Shown here: positions 1,616 through 58,110 of the stretch, one piece after another
Position numbering within the stretch: the first letter of the stretch is position 1
Layout of the letters: each line of letters starts with the position of its first letter
From: Acidobacteriaceae bacterium
GTDB taxonomy: Bacteria; Acidobacteriota; Terriglobia; Terriglobales; Acidobacteriaceae
DNA: 64,000 nucleotides
Direction of reading: 5' to 3'
Assembly (NCBI GenBank): GCA_003131315.1
Contig: PKUV01000035.1
Coordinates: 1 to 64,000 of the forward strand
Position numbers and translations under genes: made by a program
The notes under the pieces: model-generated
Databases searched by the model: none
Told to the model about the DNA's origin: nothing
Seen by the model: only the letters and a program-made list of their open reading frames with translations

Positions 1616-1617
1616 CA

Positions 1618-1705
1618 ACATTTAGCACTTAGCATTTAGCACTTAGCCAAACCGGCTCGGCGCGCACGCTAGGTGCTAATTGCTAATTGCTAAGTGCTAA
1701 ATGCT
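1618..1705. repeat. 7-nt tandem array with inverted partner, running into the moaA start codon
   Basis: The left arm (1618-1648) is built of degenerate AGCACTT/AGCATTT units and the right arm (1674-1705) of TGCTAAT/TGCTAAG/TGCTAAA units in exact 7-nt register. The two arms are reverse complements with few mismatches. The A of the moaA ATG (1701) is the last base of one unit, so the start codon is part of the array. Confidence 0.9.
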
Positions 1706-2690
1706 GCTTACCGACAAATTCGGGCGCTCGATTCACGATCTGCGGATATCGATCACCGACCGCTGTAACTACCGGTGTGTGTACTGCCGGACGGGGACCA
1801 ACGGGGCGGCGTATGCGGAACTTCCGTTTGAAGATTACTTGCGAATGGCTCGGATATTGGTTGGGCTTGGGATCACGAAGATTCGATTGACGGGCGGCGA
1901 GCCTTTGCTGCGCAAAGGCATTGTGGAATTCGTCGGCGACCTCGCGAAGCTGCGCACCTTGGACGGCAGAAAGCCTGAAATTGCACTGACTACGAACGGC
2001 CATCTGCTGGCCGAGATCGCACAGCCGCTGAAAGACGCAGGACTCGACCGCGTGACGGTCAGCATGGACGCGGTGGATCCGGAGCGATTTGCGCGCATCA
2101 CGCGCGTGCCGAATGGATACGAGAGCGTGCTGGCGGGAGTTCGCGCATCGCGGCAGGCGAGGCTCGATCCGGTGAAAATCAACTGCGTGCTACTGCGCGG
2201 TTTCAATGAAGATCAGATTATTCCGTTCGGGATGTTCGCGCGGGAAGAGCGGGTGGCGGTGCGCTTCATCGAATTCATGCCGCTCGAAGAGGACCGCGTT
2301 TGGACACCGGAAATTGTGGTGACGCTCGATGAGATCGTCACCCGCATGTCGGAGTATCTGCCGCTGGAGGAGATTGCACACGAACGCAGCGAAACGGCGC
2401 GGCGATATCGCTTCTCCGATGGCGTGGGCGAGATTGGAATCATTGCGCCCGTGTCGCATCCGTTCTGCGGACACTGCAGCCGGATTCGCATCACCTCGGA
2501 TGGCAAGCTGCGTACGTGTTTATTTTCCGTGTGGGATCACGACCTGCATGAGTTGATGCGGCGCGGCGCGACGGACGAGAAGCTCACGGAGTTCATTGTG
2601 AAAGTGGTGGAGAAGAAAGAAGAGCGCCACCACATCGGGGAGCCGGGATTTGTGCCGGCGTCGCGGACGATGGTGCATATCGGAGGGTAG
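1701..2690 (+). CDS. moaA: GTP 3',8-cyclase MoaA
   Basis: This 329-aa radical SAM enzyme carries out the first step of molybdenum cofactor synthesis, GTP to 3',8-cyclo-GTP, in the cytosol. The N-terminal SAM cluster motif is C22-x3-C26-x2-C29 (CNYRCVYC), and a GGEPLLR motif follows. The C-terminal cluster motif is C256-x2-C259-x13-C273, as expected for MoaA. The protein ends in Gly-Gly (MVHIGG), the C-terminal pair known to matter for catalysis. No other moa genes adjoin it. The molybdoenzyme MsrP at 11958-12917 is a plausible client of the cofactor. The start is fixed by homology of the first residues. There is no Shine-Dalgarno sequence; the ATG lies in the last units of a 7-nt repeat array. 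Confidence 0.97.
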   Translation: MLLTDKFGRSIHDLRISITDRCNYRCVYCRTGTNGAAYAELPFEDYLRMARILVGLGITKIRLTGGEPLLRKGIVEFVGDLAKLRTLDGRKPEIALTTNGHLLAEIAQPLKDAGLDRVTVSMDAVDPERFARITRVPNGYESVLAGVRASRQARLDPVKINCVLLRGFNEDQIIPFGMFAREERVAVRFIEFMPLEEDRVWTPEIVVTLDEIVTRMSEYLPLEEIAHERSETARRYRFSDGVGEIGIIAPVSHPFCGHCSRIRITSDGKLRTCLFSVWDHDLHELMRRGATDEKLTEFIVKVVEKKEERHHIGEPGFVPASRTMVHIGG

Positions 2691-4733: not shown

Positions 4734-4740
4734 GAGCAAG

Positions 4741-4811
4741 GTGTCAGGTGTTAGGTCCCAGGTCTCAGGAAAAGCAAGTTCTGAGACCTGACACCTAAGA
4801 CCTGAGACCTG
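4741..4811. repeat. 7-nt tandem array hairpin filling the rimP-nusA gap
   Basis: The left arm 4741-4768 has four units of the GTGTCAG/GTCTCAG type. A 12-nt loop (4769-4780) follows, then a right arm 4781-4811 of CTGAGAC/CTGACAC/CTAAGAC units. The arms pair over about 28 bp with a few mismatches. The array starts 7 bp after the rimP stop and ends 9 bp before the nusA ATG; no Shine-Dalgarno sequence is visible in between. Confidence 0.95.
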
Positions 4812-4820
4812 AAAATTCAT

Positions 4821-11223: not shown

Positions 11224-11862
11224 TTAGGCCTTGGTAACTTCCGCCCGACTCCGGGCCGGGGCTGGAATGGCGGGCTGCTGGCGCTTTTCGCCAACCCAGA
11301 CTCCCACGCGGTAGAGCAGCAGGATGCTGAGTACGACGCCGTACTCGATGGGCTTGCGGAGATCGGCCTTCACTAGCCAGGCATAATGCACCACCGCCAG
11401 GATTCCCGTGAAATAGATCAGGCGGTGCAGGCGCTGCCAGTTCTTGCCGCCCAGGCGGCGAATCGACCATGCGGTCGACGTCAAGGCCAGGGGGATCAGG
11501 AGGACGAAGGCGGAGAATCCTACGGTGATGAATCGGCGCTTAGCGATGTCTTTCAACATTTCATGGATATCGAAAAACTTGTCGAGCCAGATGTAGGTCA
11601 GAAAGTGCAGCGTACCGTAGAAGAATGCGAACAGTCCGGTCATGCGGCGGACGCCGATCAGCCAGTATTGACGTGTGATCCGGCGGAGAGGCGTGATCGA
11701 GAGAGTGGTGAGAACAAGGATCAGCGTCCAGTCGCCGGTCGAGTGCGTGATGAACTCGATGGGATTGGCGCCCAGGCCGTCATGCAGCGCTTTCCACGCC
11801 AGGCGTGCCAGCGGGACGAGCGCGGCGAGGAAGAGCGCGAGTTTTGTGAAACGGAGGGTCAT
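11224..11862 (-). CDS. msrQ: MsrQ, heme-binding membrane subunit of the MsrPQ methionine sulfoxide reductase
   Basis: The 212-aa integral membrane protein of the ferric-reductase-like family passes electrons from the quinone pool or flavin to periplasmic MsrP. Five or six hydrophobic segments are visible. Candidate heme histidines lie in FFYGTLHFLTYIW and in LHRLIYFTGILAVVHYAW. I place the start at ATG 11862 (MTLRFTKLALF); an in-frame extension to 11901 would translate repeat DNA. That ATG overlaps the last unit of a 7-nt array. It lies directly downstream of msrP, the usual pairing. Confidence 0.93.
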   Translation of the reverse strand: MTLRFTKLALFLAALVPLARLAWKALHDGLGANPIEFITHSTGDWTLILVLTTLSITPLRRITRQYWLIGVRRMTGLFAFFYGTLHFLTYIWLDKFFDIHEMLKDIAKRRFITVGFSAFVLLIPLALTSTAWSIRRLGGKNWQRLHRLIYFTGILAVVHYAWLVKADLRKPIEYGVVLSILLLYRVGVWVGEKRQQPAIPAPARSRAEVTKA

Positions 11863-11958
11863 TTGTAATTTGTGATTTGTAATTGGTAATCTAAACCCCA
11901 CAACCGGTGTTCAGCGCGGGTTTAAATTACAAATTACAAATTGCCAATTACAAATTCC
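11861..11958. repeat. 7-nt array hairpin filling the msrP-msrQ gap exactly
   Basis: ATTTGTA-type units run from 11861 to 11888 and AAATTAC-type units from 11924 to 11958, in exact 7-nt register and complementary to each other. The array begins inside the msrQ start codon and ends at the msrP stop codon, so it makes up almost the whole intergenic stretch. Confidence 0.93.
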
Positions 11959-12917
11959 TAGAAGTTCTTCTTCAGGTCCATGCCGGAATAGAGGCTCGCC
12001 ACCTGGTCGTAACCATTGAACATCAGGGTCGGCCGCTTGAGGAATTCACCCAGGCGGCGTTCCTTGGCCTGGCTCCAGCGCGGATGGTCGACGTTGGGAT
12101 TCACGTTCGAATAGAAGCCGTATTCGCTGGAGGCGGACTGTTGCCACGTGTTCATGGGCTGGTCGTCGGTGAAGCGGATGCGGACGATCGACTTCGCGCT
12201 TTTGAATCCGTACTTCCATGGAAGCACGATGCGGAGTGGCGCGCCGTCTTGATTCGGGAGCACTTCGCCGTACATACCGAAACAGAGCAGGGCGAGCGGA
12301 TGCATGGCCTCGTCCATGCGGAGACCCTCGACATAAGGCCACTTCAATACGCTGGTGCGCTGGCCGGGCATTTGTTTGGGATCGTACAAGGTAGTGAACT
12401 CGACAAATTTGGCTTTCGGCAGAGGGTCGGCGCGCTTGATCAGTTCGCTCAGGGAAAATCCGACCCATGGCACGACGATCGACCAGCCCTCGACACAGCG
12501 ATGCCGGTAGATGCGCTCTTCGGGGGCAGCCATCTTGAGGATCGCGTCGACGTCGAGCACATGCTTTTTCTTGACCTGACCGTCGATGGTCACCGTCCAG
12601 GGACGAGTCTTAAAATTCTTCGCGAGGTCGGCAGGCCCCTCTTTGTCGGTGGAGAATTCGTAGAAATTGTTGTAGCTGGTGACATCCTTGTAGGGCGTTT
12701 CCTTTTCCGTCGTGCTGAAAGGGCTTTTCTGGAGGCCATCAATTTTGGCATTGGCGTGGGCGGTGAGCGAGGGCGCAACAAAATCACGGAAGGCGACACT
12801 AGTGACGGCGGCCGCGCCGGCGATCGCTGCGCCGGCCAGGAAGCTGCGCCGGTTCAGGTAGGTCGCTTTGGGAGTAATTTCAGAAGACGGAATCGCAGCC
12901 GGTTTCCCGATCAGCAT
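11958..12917 (-). CDS. msrP: MsrP, periplasmic molybdopterin methionine sulfoxide reductase
   Basis: The 319-aa catalytic subunit reduces methionine sulfoxide in periplasmic proteins. A Tat signal is visible ([18 protein letters not shown], residues 21-38), as needed for export of a folded Mo enzyme. The sulfite-oxidase fold follows, with the likely Mo-ligating Cys141 in [21 protein letters not shown] precedes the ATG on the minus strand by a few bases. It is the first gene of a two-gene operon with msrQ. It needs molybdopterin, for which moaA lies about 9 kb away. Confidence 0.95.
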
Positions 12918-17219: not shown

Positions 17220-17234
17220 TTGAAGAAAGGGAGT

Positions 17235-17308
17235 GAGGTCAGAGGTTAGAGGTCAGATTGCAGAGGTTAAATCTGTTCAGTTCTGCAATCTGACCTCTGA
17301 CCTCACTC
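17235..17308. repeat. 7-nt array hairpin between convergent genes
   Basis: Units GAGGTCA, GAGGTTA, GAGGTCA, GATTGCA and GAGGTTA run in register from 17235 to 17269. The complement follows at 17281-17308, ending just before the stop codon of the 17309 gene. Almost the same sequence occurs at 34551-34642. Its place between convergent genes suits a two-way terminator. Confidence 0.93.
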
Positions 17309-20527: not shown

Positions 20528-20603
20528 TGTCATACTGAGCGAAGCGAAGGACCTGTAGTTCGCCGCAAAAAGCAGGTCCTTCGCTTCGCTCAGGATGACA
20601 AAA
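20528..20603. repeat. R2 repeat as an inverted pair
   Basis: TGTCATACTGAGCGAAGCGA and onward at 20528-20556 faces its reverse complement at 20571-20603. The arms are near-perfect and 14 nt apart. It lies between convergent genes and may serve as a transcription terminator. Confidence 0.9.
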
Positions 20604-30494: not shown

Positions 30495-30582
30495 TTCACC
30501 ACAGGGGGGCACAGAGGAACACAGGGGACACCCATCGCGAAATGGTTTTACCCTGTGTTCCTCTGTGCCCCCCTGTGGTGAA
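30495..30582. repeat. Perfect 32-bp inverted repeat of CACAGAGG type
   Basis: The left arm 30495-30526 begins TTCACCACAGGGGGGCACAG. The right arm 30551-30582 is its exact reverse complement, 24 nt away. The arms are built of roughly 10-nt CACAGNGGNN units. A related single arm lies at about 1309-1340. Confidence 0.93.
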
Positions 30583-31230: not shown

Positions 31231-31233
31231 CAA

Positions 31234-31343
31234 GGTCTCAGGTGTCAGGTCTTAGGTTTCAGGGGGCTGACACTAGGAAAACTTGGAAAGGTGATAAGCA
31301 CCTGGGTTGGCTGAATGCTGACGGCTGAGTGCTGAGGGCTTAA
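31234..31343. repeat. Two 7-nt arrays filling the rplM-rpsI gap
   Basis: GGTCTCA, GGTGTCA, GGTCTTA and GGTTTCA run from 31234 to 31261 right after the rplM stop. A second array GCTGAAT, GCTGACG, GCTGAGT, GCTGAGG (31310-31337) runs up to the rpsI ATG at 31344. The GAGG of the last unit is spaced to act as the rpsI ribosome binding site. The first array shares its units with the one before nusA. Confidence 0.92.
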
Positions 31344-31744: not shown

Positions 31745-31804
31745 GTCGTTGGTCGTTAGTCGATGGTCGTTCGCAAACGACTAGCGACCAACGACGAACG
31801 ACTG
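31745..31804. repeat. 7-nt array hairpin after rpsI
   Basis: GTCGTTG, GTCGTTA, GTCGATG and GTCGTTC (31745-31772), then GCAA, then ACGACTA, GCGACCA, ACGACGA and ACGACTG (31777-31804). The arms are complementary in register with a 4-nt loop. The array begins 5 bp after the rpsI stop. Confidence 0.95.
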
Positions 31805-31909
31805 GTTTTATGTGTTCAATTCATCCCCCCACCTCCCCGAGATGGGGTGGACGGGAATGGCAATCCGGGGCCTTTTAGTGTCCGGATGCAGACCAACTGA
31901 GGAGGTTGA

Positions 31910-32857: not shown

Positions 32858-32867
32858 CCAAAACGCA

Positions 32868-32980
32868 GGTTTCAAGGTTTCAAGGTTGCATAGTTTCAGT
32901 GTTGCAATCTTGATAGGTTCTCTGATTGGCCCTCCAACTGACCCTCCTTGAAACTCTGAAACCTTGAAACTCTGAAACCC
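32868..32980. repeat. 8-nt array hairpin between rpsB and tsf
   Basis: GGTTTCAA-type units (32868-32908) face CTTGAAAC/TCTGAAAC units (about 32948-32979). Here the period is 8 nt rather than 7. The arms are complementary and separated by about 40 nt. The right arm ends 10 bp before the tsf ATG at 32990. Confidence 0.9.
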
Positions 32981-32989
32981 GAGGTTCTA

Positions 32990-33803: not shown

Positions 33804-33831
33804 ACTGATAACCGGGAACTGAGAACTTTCA
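33804..33831 (+). repeat. 7-nt array running into the pyrH start codon
   Basis: Units ACTGATA, ACCGGGA, ACTGAGA and ACTTTCA are in register; the last A is the A of the pyrH ATG. The units match the right arm of the array between etfB and etfA (44671-44691). No inverted partner is close by. Confidence 0.8.
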
Positions 33832-34550: not shown

Positions 34551-34642
34551 AGGTCAGAGGTTAGAGGTCAGATTGCAGAGGTAGAACCATGACATATCCC
34601 TCGGGTTCTTACCTCTGCAATCTGACCTCTAACCTCTGACCT
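34551..34642. repeat. Perfect 33-bp 7-nt array hairpin between pyrH and frr
   Basis: AGGTCAG, AGGTTAG, AGGTCAG and ATTGCAG plus AGGTA (34551-34583) have an exact reverse complement at 34610-34642. It is nearly identical to the hairpin at 17235-17308, so this unit set exists in at least two copies. Confidence 0.96.
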
Positions 34643-35273: not shown

Positions 35274-35338
35274 CCAGTACCCAGTTGCCAGTACCCAGAA
35301 AAACCGGGGTCTGGGTACTGGCAACTGGGTACTGGCAA
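35274..35338. repeat. 7-nt array hairpin after frr
   Basis: CCAGTAC, CCAGTTG and CCAGTAC (35274-35294) face CTGGGTA, CTGGCAA, CTGGGTA and CTGGCAA (35311-35338). It starts 3 bp after the frr stop. Confidence 0.93.
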
Positions 35339-35542
35339 CGCGCATTGCCCTTATGATCTGGGGATGAAGCGCGTCGTCCACGCCGCCTACTCGCACGATT
35401 CAGCCCCGGCGGCCACAATATCAATGTGCTAACCTCAGAAAAACTTACTGACATGGGCAACGCGGCGACGTTCTATTCCGTCTGTGTTGAGGTAGAACTT
35501 TTTCGAGCGTGACTTTTGGGGAGAAATTCAAGGAGGAAACCG

Positions 35543-35591
35543 CTTTTGGCTCTTGGCCCTTGGCTTTTAGCTAAAAGCCAAGAGCCAAGAG
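35543..35591. repeat. Loop-free palindromic 7-nt array upstream of bamA
   Basis: CTTTTGG, CTCTTGG, CCCTTGG and CTTTTAG switch at 35570/35571 into CTAAAAG, CCAAGAG and CCAAGAG. The symmetry axis falls exactly between two units. The unit is the same type as at 23224-23272. Confidence 0.93.
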
Positions 35592-35700
35592 CGATTTTCT
35601 CCGCCTTGGACGGTTCTCACTCTCTACCGTATAATTACCGTTTTCCCAACTCTAGTTTTTCGAGGTAGTTGCGATTCATCGTCGTCATCATGCTATCCCT

Positions 35701-43550: not shown

Positions 43551-43599
43551 TGTTGCTTGCCTGAGTGGGTGCCCCATGGAGAACTGCTTGATTTCATTC

Positions 43600-43634
43600 C
43601 TTGAAACCCTGAAACCCTGAAACCTTGAAACCTG
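43600..43634. repeat. 8-nt CTTGAAAC array at the etfA stop
   Basis: CTTGAAAC, CCTGAAAC, CCTGAAAC and CTTGAAAC are in exact 8-nt register and end at the etfA stop codon (minus strand). The units match the right arm of the rpsB-tsf array. No close partner is seen. Confidence 0.88.
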
Positions 43635-44621: not shown

Positions 44622-44626
44622 AAAGT

Positions 44627-44691
44627 CAGTTCTCAGTTCTCGGTTCTCAGAAACAGCCCAAGTTCTTTAACTGAGAACTGGGAACTGAGAA
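44627..44691. repeat. 7-nt array hairpin filling the etfB-etfA gap
   Basis: CAGTTCT, CAGTTCT and CGGTTCT (44627-44647) face CTGAGAA, CTGGGAA and CTGAGAA (44671-44691). It lies inside a two-gene operon, so a strong terminator there would uncouple etfA from etfB. Confidence 0.94.
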
Positions 44692-44699
44692 CTTTGCTT

Positions 44700-58028: not shown

Positions 58029-58110
58029 TTGTCATCCTGAGCGAAGCGAAGGACCTGCTTTTCTGGCAAACGGGATGAAAGCAGGTCCTTCGCTTCGCTC
58101 AGGATGACAA
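58029..58110. repeat. R2 repeat as a perfect 33-bp inverted pair
   Basis: TTGTCATCCTGAGCGAAGCG and onward at 58029-58061 has an exact reverse complement at 58078-58110, with a 16-nt loop. It fills most of the gap between the HD-like gene and the MmgE/PrpD gene. Confidence 0.96.

Follow-up and report, generated by a model that had tools for sequence, protein, structure and literature searches.

Inverted pairs of heptamer arrays follow stop codons and reach into start codons in a Terriglobales genome

Introduction

Xanthomonas genomes carry GGGAATC repeats, degenerate 7-nt tandem arrays with 70-75 inverted pairs per genome, which are mostly intergenic between co-directional genes, lie 28 nt from the upstream ORF and 160 nt from the downstream ORF, and occur at different genes in two related species (PMC4692102). 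Intergenic arrays of the heptamer TAACTGA are found by start codons in Beggiatoaceae and Cyanobacteria, including those of ribosomal protein genes; few ribosome-binding sites accompany them, and the largest class of arrays ends 1 nt upstream of the start (PMC4679880). REP/BIME palindromes are present as many dispersed intergenic copies, a share of which lie no more than 15 nt from a stop codon (PMC12306157). At the level of mechanism, hairpins with matched stems are known to arise and persist through template switching (PMC8794818).

Here, we analyse the arrays in a 64-kb stretch of a Terriglobales genome (the window), and extend the analysis to a larger part of the same genome and to its relatives. 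A sequence-only reading of the window had described the start codons of moaA, msrQ, rpsI and pyrH as built into 7-nt arrays, had suggested that these arrays either hold the start in a hairpin and so set translation or have grown right up to a fixed start, and had proposed a comparison with orthologues lacking the array. We observed that the arrays of the window come as inverted pairs, a feature absent from that reading. No published description of such pairs in Acidobacteriota was found in the open-access literature.

Results

The moaA start codon lies within one arm of an inverted pair

The array at moaA, GCTAGGTGCTAATTGCTAATTGCTAAGTGCTAAATGCT, spans approximately 1668-1706 and belongs to an inverted pair placed between the Moco riboswitch and the gene (Table 1). 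By inverted-repeat search, the arms at 1616-1647 and 1675-1706 are 91% complementary. The sequence at the start reads ...TGCTAATTGCTAATTGCTAAGTGCTAA ATG CTG CTT..., with the ATG (1701-1703) inside the array and an in-frame TAA directly 5' of it (1698-1700). A start-candidate scan found no other ATG, GTG or TTG in the first 12 codons; given the TAA and the lack of any other candidate, the ATG at 1701 must be the MoaA start, and the protein read from it is a MoaA of the radical SAM type. The placement of this start within a heptamer array in the sequence-only reading was therefore correct. In the proposed comparison with array-less orthologues, two relatives without an array (L023 and L024) use the identical moaA ATG.

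The minimum-energy and centroid structures predicted for the moaA leader RNA agree in forming a hairpin between the arms, which has the A and U of the AUG at its foot. We compared moaA leaders from 81 Terriglobales: in about one third a clear pair ends at the start or close to it, about half have no array, and the arrays abut the start codon across the order. moaA is a special case, in that the upstream boundary of its pair is the Moco riboswitch and not a stop codon.

Table 1. Array pairs and associated features of the window
Feature	Position	Strand	Basis or remark
Moco (molybdenum/tungsten cofactor) riboswitch aptamer, 5' of moaA	1448-1593	+	Rfam RF01055, 59.5 bits against a gathering score of 36
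moaA pair, 5' arm, unit TTAGCAC/TTAGCAT	1616-1647	+	Inverted repeat with 1675-1706; TRF period 7
moaA pair, 3' arm, unit TGCTAAA/TGCTAAT, across moaA start codon	1668-1706	+	Period-7 score 21; inverted repeat
moaA, ATG within 3' arm, sole possible start	1701-2690	+	PF06463 and PF04055; start candidates
Pair AGGTGTC/CTGAGAC, 5 nt 3' of upstream stop, 10 nt 5' of nusA ATG (4821)	4739-4812	+	Repeat scans; NusA domains
Pair ATTTGTA/AAATTAC filling the gap from the upstream gene (11958-12917) to msrQ; 2-nt overlap with msrQ ATG	11861-11956	-	PF01794 for the MsrQ-like protein
Pair GAGGTCA between convergent genes	17231-17308	.	Inverted-repeat scan
rplM-rpsI gap: AGGTCTC array just 3' of rplM stop, GCTGAGT array just 5' of rpsI ATG (31344)	31233-31340	+	Arms of different families
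Pair GTCGTTG/CGACTAG, 5 nt 3' of rpsI stop	31745-31803	+	Inverted-repeat scan
rpsB-tsf gap filled by an 8-nt relative of the pairs (AGGTTTCA/TGAAACTC)	32861-32986	+	Repeat scans
Short GGAACTGAGAACTT remnant before pyrH ATG (33831), no array	33812-33831	+	Period scan and congener comparison
Perfect pair AGGTCAGAGGTTAGAGGTCAGATTGCAGAGGTA, 3 nt 3' of pyrH stop	34551-34642	+	Inverted-repeat scan
Perfect pair CCAGTACCCAGTTGCCAGTACCCAGA, 2 nt 3' of a stop	35274-35335	+	Inverted-repeat scan
Heptamer pair GGCTCTTGGCC/AGCCAAGAGCC	35532-35602	+	Inverted-repeat scan
Pair AGTTCTC/GAGAACT filling the gap of two co-directional ETF-domain genes	44626-44693	-	Repeat scans; Pfam

Arrays at msrQ and rpsI, and a remnant at pyrH

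The arms before msrQ (11861-11898 and 11918-11955) occupy the whole gap to the upstream gene. As the sequence-only reading had proposed, the msrQ ATG (11860-11862, minus strand) overlaps the terminal unit of its array, having two bases in common with the array at 11861-11890. This ATG is conserved, or moved by one codon, in most congeners; an upstream GTG at 11901, which is not conserved among congeners, was rejected as the start. At one related locus (L307), the junction before msrQ is nearly empty, reading TAG-a-ATG. For rpsI, the GAGG said to be supplied by an array unit is present, as GAGGG at 31334-31338 within the last unit, but this motif occurs in few of 23 congeners, and we rejected it as a conserved ribosome-binding site. 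By contrast with these cases, neither TRF nor a period scan called an array at the pyrH start. The ATG had been read as sharing its A with an ACTTTCA unit; however, ACTTTCA does not recur as a repeat unit, what stands before the codon amounts to only about two degenerate heptamers (GGAACTG AGAACTT), and pyrH was discarded as an array case.

Several other elements were seen in the window. Midway through the rplM-rpsI gap, nearly all congeners retain a GGAAAGGT-like box (31285-31292 in the window), while the flanking arrays vary. A block 5' of rpsB at 31818-31909 (AATTCATCCCCCCACCTCCCC...GGGGTGGACGGGAATGG...CCGG..CCGGATGCAGACC) is strongly conserved at 23/23 congener loci, has no Rfam match at gathering score, and contains heptamer arrays in the loop of its CCGG stem in several congeners; an S2 leader RNA not yet catalogued is one possible reading of it. 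Period-8 arrays (GGTTTCAA) at 32861-32986 and 43599-43633 are placed like the 7-nt pairs and are common in congeners, and arrays of the CACAGAGG type with a 10-nt period, at 1310-1337 and 30510-30577, are a different repeat class. A dispersed 20-nt palindrome, GGCATCGCTAAAGCGATGCC, occurs at four sites (11173, 23346, 41162 and 47068), and a dispersed element, TCCTGAGCGAAGCGAAGGACC, occurs at 166, 20533-20595, 33757 and 58035-58104, partly as facing pairs, and also in congener gaps.

Heptamer pairs are anchored at upstream stop codons

We measured the abundance and placement of arrays in 1.92 Mb, about one third, of the 6.0 Mb Terriglobales genome (a MAG), for which genes were called with a simple composition-based caller, gene starts are computed, and the thresholds for "paired" were set for this analysis. 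The first 0.71 Mb contained 39 intergenic period-7 arrays, as compared to none in shuffled intergenic DNA; period 7 was dominant, with period 14 due to alternating units. Across the 1.92 Mb there were 151 intergenic inverted repeats, and 42 of these had 7-periodic arms (heptamer pairs); shuffles yielded neither. Thirty-six heptamer pairs lie in co-directional gaps, two in convergent and four in divergent gaps, a significant preference for co-directional gaps (36/585 versus 6/309 other gaps; Fisher p 0.004). With regard to intrinsic terminators, for which a GC-rich stem with a T run behind it and frequent occurrence in convergent gaps would be expected, only 2/144 convergent gaps have pairs, and no T run follows the arms in the sequences inspected.

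With every element placed randomly inside the gap in which it occurs, 18.6 of the 36 co-directional pairs would be expected to fall within 16 nt of the upstream stop codon, and the same number within 16 nt of the downstream start. We observed 31 at stops (p<0.0005) and 16 at starts, with median distances of 5 nt after the stop and 22.5 nt before the start. Two of the 36 overlap the start codon, as compared to 10.2 at random. Relatives, with the moaA locus left out, gave 18/21 pairs at stops and 6/21 at starts, against a random expectation of 10.8 each. Non-periodic inverted repeats in the 1.92 Mb showed no stop anchoring. The position statistics of this genome and its relatives thus led us to reject start-anchored regulatory repeats. 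The arrays belong to stop codons, and starts are met as gaps are short; anchoring at stops rather than starts indicates that contact with the start is mostly a side effect of short intergenic gaps. An SD-like motif was found in 1/17 genes with an arm no more than 12 nt from the start, as compared to 40% of genes elsewhere (p 0.002).

Unit families are replaced rapidly at orthologous junctions

The arrays fall into recurring unit families, among them AATTTGT, AGGTCTC, AGTTCTC, GAGGTCA, AGCTCTT, TTAGCAC and GTCGTTG, that recur across loci of the genome. The whole genome contains 69 matches to the AGGTSTC pattern (AGGTSTCAGGTSTCAGG) and 49 to the GTCGTTN pattern (GTCGTTNGTCGTTNGTCG), with no matches to the reversed control patterns. 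Identical units are found patchily in distant Acidobacteriota, where gap-filling pairs also occur (L269, L271 and L272). One distant Acidobacteriota genome (G165) has more than 200 AGGTCTC pattern matches; at 20 of its loci (L275-L294) we observed many long heptamer arrays, mostly unpaired, that drift between heptamers within one array (TGATGCC to TGAGACC).

Species differ in the family they carry at a given locus, as seen at moaA, rplM-rpsI, rpsI-rpsB and the msrQ gap, and one genome (G004) has no pair 3' of rpsI. On a moaA gene tree of the 81 Terriglobales, we counted at least 28 changes of family and at least 21 changes of presence, these exact counts being soft because only 23/78 inner branches are strongly supported. 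Two sisters on this tree (L063 and L096; support 95) have different families. The start was moved by one codon, or turned to GTG or TTG, with some families. At moaA, ATG is used with the TGCTAAA family in 12/15 cases and with the GTCGTTG family in 1/12, the remaining 11/12 having GTG or TTG; this clear trend amounted to only 3.4 concordant independent tree pairs versus 0.1 and was not significant. Arms of different families are retained at rplM-rpsI in the window and in several congeners.

The arms change together, with no G·U signature

We compared the predicted pairing of each pair's own arms with that of arms swapped between orthologues. Own arms paired better (-33.5 versus -28.4 kcal/mol; 0/5000 permutations), indicating that the arms change together. 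Selection on the mRNA would favour G·U mismatches, with which an RNA stem can cope, over A·C, and the two were about equally frequent in arms from co-directional gaps (67 G·U, 68 A·C). By contrast, the GAAA-capped stem of the Moco aptamer, used as a control from the same leaders, had 75 G·U and 5 A·C (Fisher p 4e-12 for the comparison). Start-abutting pairs of this genome had 5 G·U and 16 A·C. The moaA arms alone showed a weak lean towards G·U (42 G·U and 23 A·C), with p 0.025 uncorrected and orthologues that are not independent. The overall 67:68 ratio favours a process that acts at the level of DNA and treats both strands alike, as slippage combined with copying between arms would, rather than selection acting on a hairpin in the mRNA. 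Hence, the proposal that a hairpin holds the start and sets translation is unsupported as a selected function. An RNA-level constraint at moaA is possible, given the lean towards G·U and the start-abutting arrays across the order. Local effects on translation are likewise possible, as arrays do replace Shine-Dalgarno sites and the moaA start type tends to follow the family.

Discussion

The pairs lie mainly in co-directional gaps a few nucleotides after the stop codon, turn over fast, have arms that change together, and carry no G·U signature. We conclude that the start-codon arrays are probably the 3' arms of heptamer-array palindromes, in each of which a short spacer separates two blocks of degenerate 7-nt repeats in opposite orientation, and that a DNA-level process probably makes and maintains these palindromes. 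Each arm would be lengthened in 7-nt steps by repeat slippage, and copying of one arm from the other by way of a DNA hairpin (template switching, or quasipalindrome correction) would keep the two matched, with families spreading between loci by some further route. Growth would halt where a stop or start codon would break. In short gaps, the 3' arm would end at or absorb the next start, selection keeping some start there, and a start at an arm would be without a Shine-Dalgarno site, whose position the arm has taken. Several observations count against parts of this model: the moaA arms lean towards G·U, and arrays abut the moaA start across the order; simple arm copying does not explain the arms of different families at rplM-rpsI; and the same families in distant Acidobacteriota require a spreading route. 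The suggestion that arrays grew up to a fixed start is in part retained. Stops are preferred sites and starts are not, and congeners without the array begin moaA at the same ATG; however, the start is not strictly fixed, having shifted by one codon or become GTG or TTG with some families. A bolder form of the DNA-level reading, which we consider rather unlikely, is that a dedicated fast process in Acidobacteriota rewrites matched palindromes at junctions, both arms together, repeatedly overwriting starts and stops of core genes (moaA, rpsI and msrQ), changing the start type and removing Shine-Dalgarno sites upon family swaps.

The patchy recurrence of families across many loci and distant genera might instead reflect mobile palindromes, for which a dedicated enzyme would target stop/start junctions and families would be replaced by repeated insertion. 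Consistent with this, some copies share both arm and spacer-proximal sequence (e.g. AGGAAAACC and ATTGCAGAGGT). However, the arms show continuous variation in their length and in their units, as slippage would produce, and the 11 Y1 transposase genes (Y1_Tnp) of this genome are flanked by other, non-heptameric palindromes; we think mobility of this kind unlikely. Heptamer arrays near these 11 genes were at background level only, and on that basis we rejected REP elements mobilised by Y1 transposases of this genome.

It is also conceivable, though we judge it quite improbable, that the arrays exert translational control, the paired arrays folding in the mRNA to hide the start, with opening of the fold setting initiation; at moaA, the pair would be the expression platform of the riboswitch. 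The predicted position of the AUG at the hairpin foot, the third of Terriglobales moaA leaders with a clear pair at or near the start, the lean of the moaA arms towards G·U and the displacement of SD sites by arrays all point in this direction. Against it, there is no genome-wide preference for starts, the start-abutting pairs of this genome lack a G·U signature, and about half of the moaA leaders are array-less, with many switches of family and presence, unlike a conserved expression platform. A REP-like 3'-end device, a hairpin no more than 15 nt from the stop that makes ribosomes stall or shields the upstream mRNA and is kept whatever its sequence, would fit the closeness of pairs to stops, their rarity between convergent genes and the down-regulation of translation reported, with reference to earlier work, for REPs of E. 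coli at most 15 nt away from a stop (PMC12306157), but the lack of a G·U signature in arm mismatches and the common occurrence of hairpin-less orthologues make it very doubtful.

A DNA-level origin has consequences for how such sequences are read. Covariation is usually taken as proof of a functional RNA; the present case, in which long matched stems with apparent covariation in core-operon leaders and junctions nevertheless have no G·U signature of a selected RNA, is therefore a warning. Comparing the G·U:A·C ratio with that of a genuine riboswitch stem from these leaders provides a simple test. In addition, a repeat process would here overwrite the start codons and ribosome-binding sites of core genes, and sets of strains offer a direct way of testing where bacterial heptamer repeats come from.

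Among known systems, the GGGAATC heptamers of Xanthomonas come closest. As in that system, the arrays described here are degenerate, intergenic and arranged in inverted pairs (42 in 1.92 Mb), and the pairs are mostly co-directional (36/42) and nearer to the upstream ORF. By contrast, Xanthomonas has one G-rich unit with G-quadruplex potential, whereas there are many families here, none with G-tracts, and no GGGA tract units (GGGANTN) were found among them. Moreover, the units here are replaced at orthologous sites with the two arms in concord, and the arrays reach start and stop codons. The TAACTGA repeats resemble our arrays in being heptamers beside starts with few ribosome-binding sites; however, they have one fixed unit and are direct, unpaired and start-anchored, whereas we observed many units in inverted pairs anchored at stops, and arrays ending at starts did not exceed chance in this genome (16/36 versus 18.6; 2/36 versus 10.2 for overlap) or in relatives (6/21).

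Like REP/BIME elements, the pairs are palindromes with many copies per genome close to the upstream stop (31/36 within 16 nt). REP/BIME elements have no tandem heptamers and are linked to RAYTs; by contrast, the pairs here are built of heptamers and have no link to Y1 transposases. With template-switch (quasipalindrome) hairpins they would share matched stems produced by DNA-level copying between arms; those hairpins were described for the stems of RNA genes (PMC8794818), whereas the arms here are also tandem arrays growing by 7 nt. Within the literature found, we saw no description of three features: the range of unit families, the concordant replacement of both arms at orthologous junctions, and the entry of arrays into start and stop codons.
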